64,000 bases of DNA from a virus. Position numbers and translations under genes: made by a program. The notes below the pieces were generated by a model. It worked only from the letters and a program-made list of their open reading frames with translations, did not search any database and was not told the DNA's origin. The stretch covers positions 1-64,000 of the IMG/VR virus record IMGVR_UViG_3300005043_000001; one strand, written 5' to 3'. Positions 129 through 55,055 of the stretch are shown here, piece after piece. How positions within the stretch are numbered: the first letter of the stretch is position 1; each line of letters starts with the position of its first letter.

Positions 129-131
129 GCA

Positions 132-160
132 TTGCTTTATCTAAAATAGTGTATTACTAT
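132..160 (+). promoter_or_regulatory. sigma70-like promoter of the structured RNA region
   Basis: TTGCTT at 132-137 and TACTAT at 155-160 are separated by exactly 17 bases. The same -10 hexamer with 17-base spacing recurs at 1431-1459, 10079-10107, 50695-50723 and 52781-52809. Initiation would fall near 167, just before the hairpin at 170-198. No gene follows for 1.3 kb, so the product is probably a non-coding RNA. Confidence 0.6.
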
Positions 161-169
161 TGTTGAACT

Positions 170-198
170 TGCTAAGGGAACCCCAAGCTCCCTTAGCA
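170..198 (+). ncRNA. hairpin at the predicted 5' end of the RNA
   Basis: TGCTAAGGGA at 170-179 pairs perfectly with TCCCTTAGCA at 189-198 around a 9-base loop. It starts within a few bases of the predicted transcription start. It could protect the 5' end, or act as a transcription end for the upstream gene, but no T-run follows. Confidence 0.55.
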
Positions 199-211
199 CT
201 ATAACCGAAAC

Positions 212-266
212 CCTTCTCTATGTTGAAGATGCTCGATACGTCTTTTCATTAGAGTCATAGAGAAGG
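212..266 (+). ncRNA. long-stem hairpin
   Basis: CCTTCTCTATG (212-222) pairs perfectly over 11 bp with CATAGAGAAGG (256-266). A second inner stem, GAAGA 225-229 with TCTTT 241-245 (one G-T pair), can stack beneath it. No reading frame explains the pairing. Confidence 0.55.
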
Positions 267-276
267 TGAGTAGGCC

Positions 277-371
277 AAGTGTTTATTTGGAAGGGGTTAG
301 CTCAATGGTAGAGCCCTGGCCAAGGTCAAAGACGGGGGTTCAATTCCCTTACCCTTTCCAAATAAGCATTT
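277..371 (+). ncRNA. tRNA-like structure 1 with 21-bp extended acceptor stem
   Basis: The tRNA geometry is clear: acceptor AAGGGGT 291-297 with ACCCTTT 351-357, TA at 298-299, D stem GCTC/GAGC (300-303, 311-314) with a GG-containing loop, and T arm 334-350 with loop TTCAATT. The anticodon position holds only a 4-bp stem with a 4-base loop (317-328), shorter than the usual 17 bases, followed by a 5-base variable loop. The acceptor continues outward without a break to 277/371, giving 21 bp including three G-T pairs. A normal mature tRNA would not carry this extension. A degenerate tRNA gene is the alternative. Confidence 0.65.
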
Positions 372-379
372 TAACTCAA

Positions 380-453
380 CCAATGTAAGTTGGTATATTA
401 GGGCATGTCATCTGACACCTAACCGAGTAAAACGACTAGGGGTATCCCCAGTC
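380..453 (+). ncRNA. three short hairpins between the tRNA-like elements
   Basis: The first has ACCAA and TTGGT arms around TGTAAG (about 380-394). The second pairs TTAGG 398-402 with CCTAA 418-422 and, inside, TGTC with GACA (406-409, 414-417). The third pairs GACT-GGGG (434-442, one bulged A) with CCCC-AGTC (446-453) around a TAT loop. All three lie between the two long-stem tRNA-like structures. Confidence 0.45.
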
Positions 454-464
454 AAATAAATTAA

Positions 465-562
465 AAGTGTTCATTCAGATGGGGTATAGCGACAACGGTA
501 GAGCACCTTAGTACAAGGCGGATGGAGGGTTCGACTCCCCAGCCCTATCTGAATGAGCATTT
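465..562 (+). ncRNA. tRNA-like structure 2 with 20-bp extended acceptor stem
   Basis: A GG-containing D-like loop (489-504), an anticodon-like arm and a T-like arm with loop TTCGACT (530-536) sit inside a continuous 20-bp stem pairing 465-484 with 543-562. The anticodon-like loop TAGTACA (509-515) would place GTA at the anticodon position, as in tRNA-Tyr. The D stem has only two good pairs and the T stem has mismatches, so it is a poor tRNA. The outer stem matches structure 1 in length and flanks but differs by paired changes (T-A to C-G at two positions, G-C to A-T at another). This indicates that the pairing itself is conserved. Confidence 0.65.
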
Positions 563-665
563 AAAAGAATTTCCTGTATAGTACTAGTGTAACGACTGGG
601 AGGGCGCGGGACGCAATGTAGCATCGGGGTTGACTGACGTTCTGCCTGCTACACTTTTGATTGAC

Positions 666-701
666 TATTCTCTCAGACCTAGCGCTAGGTCTGAGAGAAT
701 A
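666..701. repeat. perfect 36-bp palindrome
   Basis: The 18-base arm 666-683 is the exact reverse complement of 684-701, with no spacer and AGCGCT at the centre. In RNA it would form a near-perfect hairpin; in DNA it could extrude as a cruciform or bind a dimeric protein. No T-run follows, so it does not look like a terminator. Confidence 0.85.
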
Positions 702-760
702 TGTGAGGGCTGTTACCCTTGCGGTCAATTACGAGTAAGGACGATAAGAATTAAAAGTTT

Positions 761-812
761 TACCAGTAGACTTAAATTAAATTTTAGCGTCTGCAATCGT
801 AGTTTACTGGTA
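761..812 (+). ncRNA. hairpin with 8-bp closing stem
   Basis: TACCAGTA (761-768) pairs perfectly with TACTGGTA (805-812), and GAC/GTC can continue the helix inside (769-771, 789-791). The loop is very AT-rich. It lies directly upstream of tRNA-like structure 3. Confidence 0.5.
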
Positions 813-821
813 GATTAAATA

Positions 822-870
822 TGGATGGTTAGAGTTGGTAGCTCTTAGGTTCGATTCCTAAAACCATCCA
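822..870 (+). ncRNA. tRNA-like structure 3 lacking the anticodon arm
   Basis: The 49-base unit has a perfect 7-bp acceptor (TGGATGG 822-828 with CCATCCA 864-870). Its D-type arm is GAG/CTC (832-834, 842-844) with loop TTGGTAG. A perfect 5-bp T arm (845-849, 857-861) has loop TTCGATT. The D arm is followed immediately by the T arm, so the anticodon arm and variable loop are absent. Acceptor stem plus T arm is the minimal substrate known for RNase P, so it may be a processing signal or a tRNA mimic. That role is inference. Confidence 0.65.
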
Positions 871-980
871 CCGAATAGGAGTCCTTCGCCTCAATCGGCT
901 TAGGGAAATATACTGTAGTAACCAGCGCTTCGGGCGGGTTGCCATAGGGCTAGTTGGAAATCTAAGCAGCTCCACCGAAT

Positions 981-1042
981 AGAACAAGTGGCAGTCAATT
1001 GACTTTATAATCGAAAATTGGGGAAAGCTGCACACTTGTTCT
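981..1042 (+). ncRNA. hairpin with 14-bp stem
   Basis: AGAACAAGTG (981-990) pairs with CACTTGTTCT (1033-1042), and after one bulged A the helix continues as GCAG (991-994) with CTGC (1028-1031). The 33-base interior has a weak CAATT/AATTG pairing. A copy of CCACCGAATAG overlaps its 5' side and another follows tRNA-like structure 3. Confidence 0.55.
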
Positions 1043-1227
1043 TCCTATCCTCTGAGGGGTGGACGCAAGCACCTAGACCGGCGTTCGGAAGCGGCCTAGT
1101 AGTAAAGGGTACAGTAAAAGCCTTGTACTTCCGATAGCAAATAAGAGGTTAGGTGAATCGTTTACGTCAGGTTGCGAGAACCCTTATAAAGTGAGTGCAT
1201 TCAATCACTCCAACCGTATTTCTTAAT

Positions 1228-1299
1228 GGGCCGGTATTAACTGGAATAGGCGCTAGTTAATTCCTATAAAGAGAGTAGCTAACCTTACTACTCCGGCCC
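1228..1299 (+). ncRNA. three-way-junction-like RNA fold
   Basis: GGGCCGG (1228-1234) pairs perfectly with CCGGCCC (1293-1299). Inside are two further hairpins, TTAACT/AGTTAA (1237-1242, 1255-1260) and AGTAG/CTACT (1274-1278, 1288-1292). An alternative inner pairing GGAAT/ATTCC (1243-1247, 1259-1263) competes with the first, so a switch between two folds is possible. Confidence 0.5.
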
Positions 1300-1306
1300 C
1301 ACCTAT

Positions 1307-1364
1307 AAGAGGAAGGTACGTGGATTGTCAAACGCCATGCGCCATGTATTGACCTCCTCTTTTT
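1307..1364 (+). terminator. intrinsic terminator of the RNA region
   Basis: AAGAGGA-GGT (1307-1317, one bulged A) pairs with ACCTCCTCTT (1352-1361) and runs into a T-run to 1364. Inside the loop GTCAA/TTGAC (1328-1332, 1349-1353) can also pair. A weaker hairpin with a T6 tract (about 1390-1427) may add a second termination point before the DUF2800 promoter. Confidence 0.6.
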
Positions 1365-1430
1365 ACTGTGTGACTCTCCTCCCGAAAGCCGTCTCTTTTA
1401 GCGTTGATGGTGAGTAGGGACTTTTTTCTC

Positions 1431-1498
1431 TTTACTTCCTTAAAAGACTGTAGTACTATAAAACCTCAATTTTGTAAAATATTTTTTGAGGCACTTTT
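1431..1498 (+). promoter_or_regulatory. promoter and SD-sequestering leader of the DUF2800 gene
   Basis: TTTACT (1431-1436) and TACTAT (1454-1459) are 17 bases apart, matching the phage's common promoter type. The short leader contains CCTCAA (1464-1469), which pairs with TTGAGG (1486-1491). GAGG in that arm is the only good Shine-Dalgarno sequence, 7 bases before the ATG at 1499. The ribosome site can therefore be closed in a hairpin. Confidence 0.6.
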
Positions 1499-2768: not shown

Positions 2769-3617
2769 ATGGCTAATCCATTTAAAGTTCTACTTGGTTC
2801 TAAAGGTTCTCCGGTACGTTCTTCATTCATGTTCGTTCGTGAATTGCAAGAAGATGAGCATGGAAATAAAAAGTGTAAGACTGGTATCCTACTTCCCAAA
2901 TCCGACACTGCCACTTTTAAAAAGATGGTGAAAGCAGTTAACGCTGCGGGACAAAAGAAGTTTGGTTCGAAGTTCAATGTTAAAACCACTAATAAAAATG
3001 TGCCATTTCGGGACGGTGATAAACTTGCCAAAGATCCTGACAGTTCGGTGGGCAAAGAAGCCAAAGGGCATTGGGTTCTAACTGCTATTGGGTATAAGCT
3101 ACCTGATATTCAAAACCGTAAAAATGAAAAGATTATTGATGACGACGAGATTGAAGAAACAGCCCGCTCGGGTAACTACTTCCTAATCAGCGTTACTTTT
3201 AAAGGTTTTGAGAAAGGCGGTAATTCTGGCGTTCGAACTGAATTAAATAACATCATGTATGTCAAAGAGGGCGAAGCTCTTGATGGTTCAATGAGTGGTG
3301 AAGATGAATTCCGTGAACACGCCATGGATGATGACGAAGAGCTGGATGAAGACGGAATGAAAGCGCTTTTCAAGAAGGCAAAGAGTGCCGACAAGAAAGC
3401 CGCTAAAAAAGCGTTAAAGGAAACGGGTGAATCCTCAATTGGTGAAGTTGATGAAGAGGATTACGAAGACCTAGCTGAAGCACTTCGTGAAATAGTTGGC
3501 GAGGAAGAAGAGGACGAAGAAGAAGAGGATGACGAAGAAGAAGAAGAAGAAGAAAAGCCTAAAAAGAAAAAGAAAAAGTCTTCTGACAAAAAGTCCTCTC
3601 GCCGGTCTCGCCGTTAA
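2769..3617 (+). CDS. DUF2815 family protein, probable ssDNA-binding protein
   Basis: This 282-residue protein starts one base after the DUF2800 stop. The first 170 residues resemble DUF2815, a family found next to DUF2800 and PolA in phages and thought to bind single-stranded DNA. From about residue 180 it becomes strongly acidic, with long runs of Glu and Asp. It then ends in a lysine/arginine/serine tail (about 255-282). An acidic tail followed by a basic tip is unusual. A terminator follows at 3635-3666. Confidence 0.8.
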   Translation: MANPFKVLLGSKGSPVRSSFMFVRELQEDEHGNKKCKTGILLPKSDTATFKKMVKAVNAAGQKKFGSKFNVKTTNKNVPFRDGDKLAKDPDSSVGKEAKGHWVLTAIGYKLPDIQNRKNEKIIDDDEIEETARSGNYFLISVTFKGFEKGGNSGVRTELNNIMYVKEGEALDGSMSGEDEFREHAMDDDEELDEDGMKALFKKAKSADKKAAKKALKETGESSIGEVDEEDYEDLAEALREIVGEEEEDEEEEDDEEEEEEEKPKKKKKKSSDKKSSRRSRR

Positions 3618-5744: not shown

Positions 5745-6341
5745 ATGTCAAGTGACCCAATAGAAACAAAAGAAACAGCAGTACCAGTACCTGATAAAGT
5801 ACGCGCAGCTAAAAAGAAAAGGCATCCCCTGCTTTGCAGTTGTGATGAATGTTCTGTAGTAGTAGGTAGGACAAAGGAGCTAAACCCTATTGCGGTAGAA
5901 GAACCACAACCGCAGGAGATACACCCCAGCCACTGCTGTTGCTCTGTTTGTAAACCAATGATGCTGTCTAATAGTGGTACTGAACTGGAGATGTCAGAAA
6001 TCGAGATTAAAAGTGGAGATACTGTAACAATGTCAGATATATATACGCCTACGCTGGACGGGCTATCAGTATCTGAAAAAGAGGTAGGAAAGCATTACAA
6101 CATCGTCCTTTATCGCTATTTAACAGATGAAGAAATTGAATCAAGAACTGTTAAAATAAAGCTCGACCCATATCGCCTAGCAGAACACTACACTTTCAGT
6201 AGCTCCGCAATGGAACACATTTTCAAGAAGTCGATACGCAACACCTCTAAAGGTGCGACTGAAGAAAAAGTACTTACTGAAATTATAGCAACTGCTAAGC
6301 GTCAACTTGAAATACTAGAAGAAAGGAAATTAAACCTGTGA
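5745..6341 (+). CDS. hypothetical protein with duplicated cysteine motif
   Basis: This 198-residue protein of no recognised family starts at 5745, four bases after the polymerase stop. AGGA at 5732-5735 supports that start over upstream in-frame ATGs inside the polymerase gene. The N-terminal third contains two similar cysteine clusters, HPLLCSCDEC (about 26-35) and HPSHCCCSVC, that could bind two metal ions such as zinc. The rest is mixed helix with a basic, coiled-coil-like C-terminus. Its position suggests an accessory replication role, which is only a guess. Confidence 0.7.
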   Translation: MSSDPIETKETAVPVPDKVRAAKKKRHPLLCSCDECSVVVGRTKELNPIAVEEPQPQEIHPSHCCCSVCKPMMLSNSGTELEMSEIEIKSGDTVTMSDIYTPTLDGLSVSEKEVGKHYNIVLYRYLTDEEIESRTVKIKLDPYRLAEHYTFSSSAMEHIFKKSIRNTSKGATEEKVLTEIIATAKRQLEILEERKLNL

Positions 6342-6993: not shown

Positions 6994-7337
6994 TGTCCGA
7001 ATCAAAAGCTGCACAACTGAAAAAGAAAAAAGGGGAGCGTAAAAGGCTTCTCGAAGAAGAGCGGGCAATTCAGGCAGAGTTAGATGCGGGGGTAGAGGAG
7101 CGTAAAGAAGCGCGTAAGGAAGTAACCGCATGTAGGTTAGTTGTCGAAGGGCATATACTTTCCTTGCGTATTGCTGGTAGTGATATGAGTGGCATCATTT
7201 CTAAACAGCAAACCTTTACCAAGTTCGACCGTTACAAAGAGTTTCAAGAGGAGTTGCTAAATAGAACGGATGAGTTACTAACCGCAGCAACGGAACACAA
7301 CCAAGCTATACAGAAGGTTAAAGACCTTGGCGGCTAG
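6993..7337 (+). CDS. hypothetical coiled-coil protein
   Basis: The 114-residue protein has a highly charged N-terminal half (lysine, glutamate and arginine heptads, residues 5-50) predicted to form a coiled coil, then a second helical segment. It shares the TAATG overlap with its upstream neighbour and overlaps the VRR-NUC gene by 11 bases. The function is unknown. Confidence 0.65.
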   Translation: MSESKAAQLKKKKGERKRLLEEERAIQAELDAGVEERKEARKEVTACRLVVEGHILSLRIAGSDMSGIISKQQTFTKFDRYKEFQEELLNRTDELLTAATEHNQAIQKVKDLGG

Positions 7338-7674
7338 GCGCGAAAGTTCTATAGAAACTTCGTTTAATACTGAGGCGGCAAAGAACTTCTTCCTCAGTAT
7401 TAAACTTATTGCTAATAGCAGAAATGGCTTCCCTGATCGAACGTGTTTCGGTAAGGGAGGCCATATCTTTTTTGTAGAATTGAAAAGACCTAAAGAAGAC
7501 CCAAGGCCAAATCAGTATTACTGGCACCGATTACTAAAACGAATGGGGTTTAGATGTTATGTCTGTAAGACAACGGACGAAGCGAAGAAAATCTTTAAAC
7601 TTGAGCGGCGATACCAAATGGATTCCTCATCAATACCAACTAAGCGCCATCGCAAGAGGGTTTCGACAAAATAA
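7327..7674 (+). CDS. VRR-NUC domain nuclease
   Basis: The 115-residue protein carries the compact PD-(D/E)XK nuclease motifs of VRR-NUC: GFPDR at 34-38, FVELK at 49-53 and a glutamine at 63 before a helix. Stand-alone VRR-NUC enzymes next to a SNF2 helicase are a standard pair in phage replication modules and are thought to resolve or trim branched DNA. The start is TTG at 7327, inside the previous gene. The C-terminal 40 residues overlap the helicase frame. Confidence 0.85.
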   Translation: MAARRESSIETSFNTEAAKNFFLSIKLIANSRNGFPDRTCFGKGGHIFFVELKRPKEDPRPNQYYWHRLLKRMGFRCYVCKTTDEAKKIFKLERRYQMDSSSIPTKRHRKRVSTK

Positions 7675-9058
7675 GTTAGCGTACTTTCTAGATCCTGGCT
7701 TAGGGAAGACCACTATAATACTACAGTTATACAAGATGCTAAAGCAGTATGGTAAAGCGAAAGGCATCCTGTTAATTGCACCTATTCGTGTGATGGAATT
7801 AGTGTGGCCTTTGGAGATTCAGAAATGGCCCAACTTCCGCCACATAAAAATCAACATCATGCATGGCCCAAAGAAAAAGCTAGACTACGACGCAGATATA
7901 AACATCATTAACCCTGCGGGTCTCCCCTGGCTTAAAACACAACTGCACAACGTACGTGTTAAGAAGTGGCCATTTGATATGATGGTAGTCGATGAAAGCA
8001 CAATGTTTAAAAATTATGACAGTGCTAGATTCATGCTACTACAGAACTACTTTACTAAAAAGATGTCTCGCCGGTACATTCTAACAGGTACGCCAATCCC
8101 TAATGGTTACATGCAGTTATTCAGCCAATTCAAGATTGTTGATGAAGGGCGTTCTCTTGGTAAAAACATAACTGACTTTAGGTACCATTACTTTAAACCT
8201 GTTGGCCCACCTCAGTATAGGCAGTTTAAGTTACGCGATGGTGCAGACAAAAAGATTAATAAAAAGATAGCGCGTTATGTCTGTAGAATGTCAGCAGAAG
8301 AGTATTTGAAACTTCCACCAATATCTATTAATACTATAAAAGTAGATATGCCTAAAAAGGCGATGAAACAATATGAGAAATTACGTGATGAACAGTTCTT
8401 GCAAGTTGGTATCAAAGAAATCTATCCGCCAACCGCTGCAAGTCTCGGTCAAAAGCTCCACCAGATCGCAAATGGCAACCTATACGAAAACTGGGATGTA
8501 CTTGAGAAAGGGAAAGTACCTTCCGCAGCAAAGCGACCCTATATTAAGTTTCACAATGCCAAGATCGATGCACTTAAGGAACTTCAGACAGAACTACAAG
8601 GTAAACCTCTCTTTGTCGCGTACTGGTACCACCACGATCTTATTACACTCCAAGCGGCGTTTCCTAAAGCCATCATCATTAATTCTAAAACCACATCTAA
8701 ACAAGCGGCAAAGATAGAACGCGATTGGAATGCCGGAAGGATACCAATGCTAATAGCACAGCCCGCATCTGTTGCCCATGGGCTTAACTTTCAAAAGGCC
8801 GGAGGCGATGTTGCATGGTACTCATTAGTATACGACTTCGAACTTTATGATCAGTTTATCAAAAGGTTATGGAGACAAGGCGCAATTGATAAAGTTATGG
8901 TACACTTCTTAATGACCCGAGGCACTATTGATGAAGCAATATTCGAGAAGCTAATGGGAAAGAAAGTAGTACAGGATGACTTTTATGAAGTTATGAGAGT
9001 TTATCAACGCCAACTTAAAAAGGATATGGACTATGAACAAAGTAATAGAGCGGCTTAA
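7559..9058 (+). CDS. SNF2/DEAD-like superfamily 2 helicase
   Basis: The protein of up to 499 residues has an N-terminal PHQYQLSAI element (Q-like motif), Walker A DPGLGKT near residue 44, a DEST box near 144 in place of DEAH, TGTPIPN, and C-terminal motifs HGLNFQKAGG near 406 and RLWRQGAIDKV near 435. It would use ATP to move on or remodel DNA, probably with the VRR-NUC enzyme. The start is uncertain: ATG 7559 overlaps the nuclease gene by 116 bases, and TTG 7601 would remove a basic stretch while keeping all motifs. Confidence 0.9.
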   Translation: MSVRQRTKRRKSLNLSGDTKWIPHQYQLSAIARGFRQNKLAYFLDPGLGKTTIILQLYKMLKQYGKAKGILLIAPIRVMELVWPLEIQKWPNFRHIKINIMHGPKKKLDYDADINIINPAGLPWLKTQLHNVRVKKWPFDMMVVDESTMFKNYDSARFMLLQNYFTKKMSRRYILTGTPIPNGYMQLFSQFKIVDEGRSLGKNITDFRYHYFKPVGPPQYRQFKLRDGADKKINKKIARYVCRMSAEEYLKLPPISINTIKVDMPKKAMKQYEKLRDEQFLQVGIKEIYPPTAASLGQKLHQIANGNLYENWDVLEKGKVPSAAKRPYIKFHNAKIDALKELQTELQGKPLFVAYWYHHDLITLQAAFPKAIIINSKTTSKQAAKIERDWNAGRIPMLIAQPASVAHGLNFQKAGGDVAWYSLVYDFELYDQFIKRLWRQGAIDKVMVHFLMTRGTIDEAIFEKLMGKKVVQDDFYEVMRVYQRQLKKDMDYEQSNRAA

Positions 9059-54134: not shown

Positions 54135-55055
54135 ATGGCTAAGAAATCATTTGTTAAAAAAGATGTTTACCAAGAAGTTACCAACAAGATCATTGCGAAA
54201 CTCGAAGCTGGAACCGTTCCATGGGTTAAAGAGTGGGACAACCAAGGCAACAATCTTTCAAAACCCCTACCTTACAATTTCGACTCCGGCAACATGTACA
54301 GTGGAATGAATATTTTATCATTGTGGATGAGTGAGGAAGAGAACCAATTTACTTCCAATGCCTGGATGACATTCGCACAAGCCAAGAAGAAAGGCGGCAA
54401 CATAATCAAAGGGCAAAAGGGAACGTCTCTATTCTTTTTTAAGTTTGTCGAGAAGGTTTGCGCGGACACTGGGACAGATAAGTCCTACGCAATGCCTAAG
54501 CCCTTCACAGTGTTTAACCTAGACCAGATTGAAGGTATCGAGTTGCCAACGTGTGAGGAGCAACCACAGCCCCATAATGGGCCAATTAATACTGGCGTGT
54601 TACTCTCTTACATGATCGATCAAGGCATTAAGCTAACAGACGGCAAAAACACTGCTTACTACTCCCCAACTGTTGACCGCATAGGAATGCCACCCCGCGA
54701 ACAGTTCCACAGCGAGAGCGCCTATTTTGGGACTCTGGCGCATGAATGCATACACTCGACTGGACACAAGAAGCGTCTAGACCGATTCAGCAACATAACC
54801 GACATACTTGACACCGTACCAAGCCCTAAGAAAGAATATGCATTTGAGGAATTGATTGCAGAACTAGGCGCGGCTTTCCTTTGTGCTGAAACCGGAATAC
54901 AAAAAGACAATGAACAGACAGCCGCATATATTGGCCACTGGTTAAAGTGTCTTAAGTCCGATAAGAAGTTTATTGCACAAGCCGCAAGCCGTGCATCAAA
55001 GGCGACTAAGTATATAAACGAAGCCGCAGAAATTAAACTAGAAAAGGCCGCATAA
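54135..55055 (+). CDS. ardC: ArdC-type antirestriction protein
   Basis: The 306-residue protein has an N-terminal ArdC single-stranded-DNA-binding domain (YQEVTNKIIAKLEAGTVPWV, KGGNIIKGQKGTSLFFFKF, about 10-130). A C-terminal zincin-like domain has HECIH near 201-205 and the further Glu in EELIAELGAA near 237. ArdC proteins protect incoming DNA from host restriction. As a gene behind a strong early promoter it fits a role just after injection. All visible catalytic residues are present. Confidence 0.9.
   Translation: MAKKSFVKKDVYQEVTNKIIAKLEAGTVPWVKEWDNQGNNLSKPLPYNFDSGNMYSGMNILSLWMSEEENQFTSNAWMTFAQAKKKGGNIIKGQKGTSLFFFKFVEKVCADTGTDKSYAMPKPFTVFNLDQIEGIELPTCEEQPQPHNGPINTGVLLSYMIDQGIKLTDGKNTAYYSPTVDRIGMPPREQFHSESAYFGTLAHECIHSTGHKKRLDRFSNITDILDTVPSPKKEYAFEELIAELGAAFLCAETGIQKDNEQTAAYIGHWLKCLKSDKKFIAQAASRASKATKYINEAAEIKLEKAA

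Follow-up and report, generated by a model that had tools for sequence, protein, structure and literature searches.

Genomic context of the insert

The window (the whole stretch of DNA that was analysed, 64,000 nucleotides) opens a contig of 74,374 bp whose ends overlap by 99 bp, which indicates a circular phage genome of approximately 74.3 kb. The contig was binned with a 4.15-Mb bacterial genome, and an IMG/VR copy of the same phage was identical across the 7.8 kb compared. A gene-free insert near the start of the window has a primase gene and a 218-aa ORF for an acidic protein on its upstream side, and genes for a DUF2800/PD-(D/E)XK protein, an Enc34-type ssDNA-binding protein (SSB) and PolA downstream (Table 1). 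As the earlier note had stated, no supported gene is present in the insert: its longest ORFs encode 62–68 aa and the five that were tested had no PHROG match. Neither the rest of the window nor the related phage loci examined contain a longer stretch without ORFs.

Comparison of PolA placed Pseudomonas phages KPP23 and RSP (49.5%) closest among named phages. Three relatives (L005/KPP23, L009 and L058) share the gene order, but have only ~20–160 bp at the site of the 1.37-kb insert, and the insert is thus specific to the window phage among the relatives seen. Relatives with a protein-coding counterpart had been named as evidence that would speak against an RNA; the three examined simply lack the insert. 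No ordinary tRNA genes occur elsewhere in the phage, and ARAGORN, applied to the window, detected no tRNA. Positions 54135–55055 strongly match phrog_7245, a family of anti-restriction proteins (E 3e-76).

Predicted structure of the insert

The earlier note described 1.2 kb packed with RNA structure, bracketed by a promoter and a terminator. Folding bears this out for ~700 nt. Against shuffled sequences, the minimum free energy (MFE) z-score was −7.7 for 167–1364 and −8.6 for 167–870 but −1.6 for 871–1364, while 15 segments of 704 nt from other parts of the phage gave a mean of −0.6 and a minimum of −3.6; structure in the 3' third is therefore not above background. Sub-domains within the 5' part also scored low (−6.6 for 167–600; others in Table 1). 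The computed fold contains the more than ten long stems that had been reported, as well as the hairpin at the predicted start and the three-way junction. In the helix that closes the multibranched domain, the inner pairs have a probability of 0.9 or more and the outermost of 0.5–0.65. An exact 12-nt repeat, TCCACCGAATAG, occurs at 867–878 and 971–982, and the CCGA of either copy could pair with UCGG near 895–898, which would give a possible alternative fold.

Table 1. Features of the insert and armless tRNA-like elements found in other phages
Feature	Position	Strand	Evidence
Gene-free insert	129–1498	+	From acidic ORF (ends 128) to DUF2800 gene (starts 1499); ORF lists, gap analysis
Promoter claimed earlier, TTGCTT-17-TACTAT, unsupported	132–162	+	7/12 consensus
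10-bp start hairpin, TGCTAAGGGA/TCCCTTAGCA	170–198	+	p 0.97, z −5.0
11-bp stem enclosing 7-bp hairpin	212–266	+	Fold, inverted repeat I4; 167–270 z −5.4
TLS1, tRNA-Gly-like, tRNA core 291–358	277–371	+	Rfam tRNA; continuous 21-bp acceptor stem; z −5.4
Hairpin GACT.GGGG/CCCCAGTC, TLS1–TLS2 spacer	434–453	+	Fold
TLS2, paralogue of TLS1	465–562	+	Alignment to TLS1; 21-bp acceptor stem; z −5.5
Multibranched domain (palindrome, hairpin 759–814, TLS3)	595–900	+	Closing helix 602–612/881–891; z −7.4
Three-way junction	658–731	+	Helix 658–666/723–731 bearing 667–700 and 703–722; p 0.85–0.99
Perfect 36-nt palindrome, 18-nt arms, no spacer	666–701		Repeat search (I2)
14-bp stem	759–814	+	Fold; 755–820 z −4.1
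TLS3, anticodon-armless tRNA-like	822–870	+	R2 model; 9-bp acceptor, D arm with GG, T arm with UUCGA
15-bp hairpin, amid weakly structured 3' third	981–1042	+	Fold; 975–1045 z −3.5
Imperfect terminator-like hairpin, then TTTTT	1307–1366	+	z −3.0
Armless tRNA-likes, other phages	L168, L174, L177, L185, L192, L196, L198, L204, L205, L208, L220, L222, L231, L239, L260, L261, L278, L339		Perfect acceptor and T arm, 8–11-nt middle

The bracketing signals fared less well. The 17-spaced promoter placed at 132–160 was rejected, as it matches the consensus at no more positions than the best site in 1190 of 1334 45-bp stretches (89%), and it was absent from the output of the promoter scan. At the 3' end there is a weak terminator candidate at 1307–1361, a 7-bp-based hairpin with a long interior before the five T, but it is imperfect and was missed by a simple terminator scan. 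Transcription of the + strand would probably arise by read-through from the replication operon. The gene-free stretch between the replication genes very probably gives rise to a long folded RNA.

The position of the insert, directly upstream of the DUF2800-SSB-PolA operon and on the same strand, raises the alternative that it is a cis-acting leader, in which the fold itself, or the binding of a host factor to the tRNA-like elements, would control transcription or translation of the operon. CCTCAA at 1466–1471 can pair with TTGAGG over the DUF2800 ribosome-binding site (1466–1492), a possible translational switch. However, the relatives control the same operon with their short intergenic gaps, and the operon-proximal 871–1364 is the least structured part of the insert. 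A leader function therefore seems quite unlikely. A role at the DNA level, for instance as a site of recombination or an origin of replication, could be read from the perfect palindrome and the nearby primase and polymerase genes. Yet cumulative GC skew turns near 11 and 51 kb, away from the insert, and the tRNA elbow motifs, together with G-U wobbles that are conserved, point to RNA, which makes such a role highly improbable.

The tRNA-like elements

All three tRNA-like folds reported for the insert were recovered, TLS1 with the Rfam tRNA model (44.9 bits, E 2.6e-6), TLS2 by paralogy to TLS1 and TLS3 with R2 (25.8 bits, E 2.2e-7), an independent model made from armless tRNA-likes of other phages (both E-values over 64 kb and from a short calibration). 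A strict tRNA-like search had a match in one of 1000 dinucleotide shuffles of the region, compared to two elements in the real sequence. The tRNA core, consisting of the acceptor, a D arm with GG and a T arm with UUCRA, is present in the three elements, in TLS2 as read through its alignment to TLS1. None of them has the 5-bp anticodon stem and 7-nt loop of a decoding tRNA.

The closest ordinary tRNAs of TLS1 and TLS2 are tRNA-Gly. The TLS1 stem pairs with a probability of about 1.0, and between the two 21-bp stems there are four compensatory double changes, one single G-U change and no mismatches; sliding the partners out of register gave at most one double change. TLS1 and TLS2 are identical at 11/12 positions of the D-loop core and 11/13 of the T-loop core, versus 4/19 of the anticodon region. 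In TLS1 the anticodon arm has collapsed, with a GCCAA loop remnant kept and approximately four anticodon-stem bases missing, and in TLS2 it consists of 4 bp with a 5-nt loop, next to a degenerate D stem. At the level of these two sequences, the comparison shows that selection keeps the elbow and acceptor helix and not the anticodon. Since the whole RNA has no homologue, the covariation is intragenomic and applies to TLS1 and TLS2 only.

The same elements could be read as a decaying cluster of captured tRNA genes that has lost its function and has no RNA role now: TLS1 and TLS2 appear derived from tRNA-Gly, with deletions in the anticodon arm, and the phage lacks an intact tRNA gene. Decay does not account for compensatory changes without a single mismatch, for stems that exceed any tRNA acceptor or for an elbow kept while the anticodon diverged, and the armless elements of other phages combine perfect acceptors with extensive covariation (see section "Armless and extended-acceptor tRNA-likes in other phages"). 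We consider decay slightly less probable even than a leader function.

TLS3 has the anatomy of the armless class, i.e., an acceptor, a D arm and a T arm with a middle too short for an anticodon arm, and it forms one arm of the multibranched domain. Its near-canonical acceptor-T stack is followed by ACC. This favours a processing module, in which the tRNA-likes act as punctuation, RNase P cuts TLS3 and RNase III cuts both 21-bp stems, so that several small RNAs would be released and the replication mRNA trimmed. Long perfect stems suit RNase III. On the other hand, the leader and trailer of TLS1 and TLS2 are fully paired, which is unfavourable to RNase P, and helix 602–612/881–891 closes the domain around TLS3, which also makes TLS3 a less convincing 3' terminus of the RNA. 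We regard processing by the two RNases as rather unlikely, but as the main rival to the function proposed below; a leader, a decaying cluster and a DNA element are less probable and rank lower.

Proposed function

The earlier note considered three possibilities: that the RNA is long and regulatory, that it is processed into small RNAs, or that it is a decoy for host RNA-acting defence. Of this, a structured RNA with three tRNA-likes stands, but its promoter-terminator bracketing is weak. Because the anticodon was lost while the elbow and closed acceptor helices were kept, a decoy or docking function fits best. We tentatively propose that the long structured RNA (core ~167–900) is a module between replication genes that acts as a non-decoding tRNA-elbow decoy. 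The proposal is drawn from the anatomy of the RNA, and the targets named are putative. The RNA would offer tRNA elbows to host tRNA-binding proteins as a mimic that is unable to decode, with RNase P as the first candidate partner and, alternatively, T-arm modifying enzymes or defence nucleases directed at the elbow and acceptor. The 5' and 3' ends of TLS1 and TLS2 are buried in a long duplex, which would prevent charging and CCA-tailing and make them poor RNase P substrates. They may thus bind and titrate a host factor instead of being used, while TLS3, with its acceptor of normal length, may be an RNase P substrate. An alanine-type G3-U70 pair is present in TLS1 and TLS2, but since their ends are closed we do not propose charging. 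A decoy of anticodon nucleases is disfavoured, as no element carries the canonical 7-nt loop on a 5-bp stem. The absence of an ordinary tRNA gene elsewhere in the phage argues against codon supply.

Relation to known RNAs

The full RNA is known from one genotype, and it has no relative in the collections searched. Apart from tRNA similarity at TLS1, blastn with the whole RNA in phages and plasmids gave nothing but chance matches, and a DNA search of 44 family genomes recovered the window phage alone. R1, a model of TLS1 and TLS2, found nothing except the window phage in 274 class genomes, ordinary tRNA-Gly only in 39 relatives and no match in 40 phage records. Candidate matches in L091 and in the other loci of the same search were due to chance, and those from a contig search of the genome collection were ordinary tRNAs or chance. 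The earlier note named no described phage RNA with this layout. In Rfam, tRNA was the sole family matched in the region. Neither a tmRNA (ARAGORN, Rfam) nor a group I/II intron or known ribozyme (no such Rfam family at E up to 10) was detected.

Large structured phage RNAs are the nearest parallels. GOLLD and ROOL RNAs form cages, and the GOLLD linker sometimes carries tRNAs (PMC12286853). Like GOLLD (RF02032), the window RNA is a large structured phage RNA, and in another phage (L227) an armless tRNA-like lies just 3' of GOLLD; but in the window RNA the tRNA-likes are internal parts, and 21-bp stems close two of them. ROOL (RF03087) is also large and structured and often lies near tRNA genes, and its copy in L256 abuts an armless tRNA-like. 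Neither model matched positions 100–1500 of the window (cmscan, E up to 10), whereas the same models gave 240 bits for GOLLD in L227 and 141 bits for ROOL in L256. The cages and the linker tRNAs suggest a possible functional parallel with the window RNA, short of any demonstrated relation to GOLLD or ROOL.

In mammals, mascRNA is a tRNA-like that adjoins MALAT1, is cut by RNase P and is released by processing. It, too, places a tRNA-like domain on a long noncoding RNA (PMC9777231); it is, however, mammalian and freed by cleavage, and the link to the window RNA is one of analogy only. Phage tRNAs have been described as countering tRNA-targeting defences (PMC10264068, PMC11555353, PMC13096335). 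The window RNA would resemble these as a tRNA-derived phage RNA that is possibly aimed at host tRNA-acting systems, but those phage tRNAs decode and the window tRNA-likes have no usable anticodon.

Armless and extended-acceptor tRNA-likes in other phages

A tRNA pattern with a shortened middle matched at least 119 IMG/VR contigs. The scans register exact motif matches only, and the retrieval patterns fixed D/T motifs or bottom stem pairs and left the upper stem pairs free. Among the matches listed, 30 distinct elements have a middle of 8–11 nt; 19 of these have 7/7 acceptor pairs and none 6/7, while a control site had seven pairs in 0/30. Nineteen armless elements were aligned, 18 of them IMG/VR sequences and the other taken from a cultured phage; 98.7% of cells were paired and 84 were double-changed, compared to 24 in shuffles, with double changes at every acceptor pair. 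ARAGORN listed none of the armless elements in the subset of loci to which it was applied. TLS3 shares their acceptor, D arm and T arm and likewise lacks an anticodon arm, but its D arm and middle are shorter, and it lies within a large RNA whereas the others are free-standing.

Most armless elements listed lie near ordinary phage tRNA genes or alone in short intergenic gaps, so that their role may differ from that of the long RNA. The idea that they always accompany ornate RNAs was dropped, since only 2/19 do among the matches listed. In L227, GOLLD (182–594) is followed by a tRNA-Tyr (604–686) and an armless tRNA-like (733–790) with ~95–97% identity over 60–62 nt in Lactobacillus brevis phages Lb, LBR48 and 3-SAC12. 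In L256, an armless tRNA-like (7297–7355, −) overlaps the 3' end of ROOL (7346–7926, −) by ten bases, an arrangement which suggests that RNase P could define that end. These two elements suggest a link to large phage RNAs. The frequent location in same-strand intergenic gaps and the position at the ROOL end would also be in line with the processing module considered above.

Returning to the elbow decoy, the recurrence of such elements in many unrelated phages suggests, as far as sequence comparison reaches, an overlooked kind of phage RNA that acts on the host tRNA machinery. The usual explanations of phage tRNAs are codon supply or the countering of defences by working tRNAs, and an elbow under selection without codon reading calls for another explanation. 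It is possible, though we hold it with somewhat more reserve than the decoy function itself, that an unrecognised phage class of anticodon-less tRNA-derived RNAs acts on host tRNA enzymes or defences and that the window RNA is a new ornate class. If so, the class would span free-standing armless tRNAs and closed extended-acceptor tRNAs, three such elements being built into the window RNA, and would offer small testable RNAs for asking how phages benefit from tRNA mimicry. In the literature searched, outside which most subscription papers fall, we found no description of anticodon-armless phage tRNAs. Annotation, where present, labels such RNAs as pseudo or undetermined tRNAs: the copies in the cultured Lactobacillus phages Lb and LBR48 are unannotated, that in 3-SAC12 is labelled pseudo tRNA-OTHER and that in Polaribacter phage Danklef Undet.

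Extended acceptors were found in three further phages, with 18 bp in L171, 17 bp in L329 and 16 bp or more in L294. The L171 element has a short, 4-nt anticodon loop. The L329 element (3360–3458, −) is a tRNA-Asn with a normal anticodon and an uninterrupted acceptor stem, and an extended stem thus does not imply loss of decoding. It lies within a tRNA array, of which the spacers likewise form long stems. The L294 element (5960–6140, −) is armless; immediately after it comes another tRNA-like, which is degenerate and unusual in the region of the D arm.
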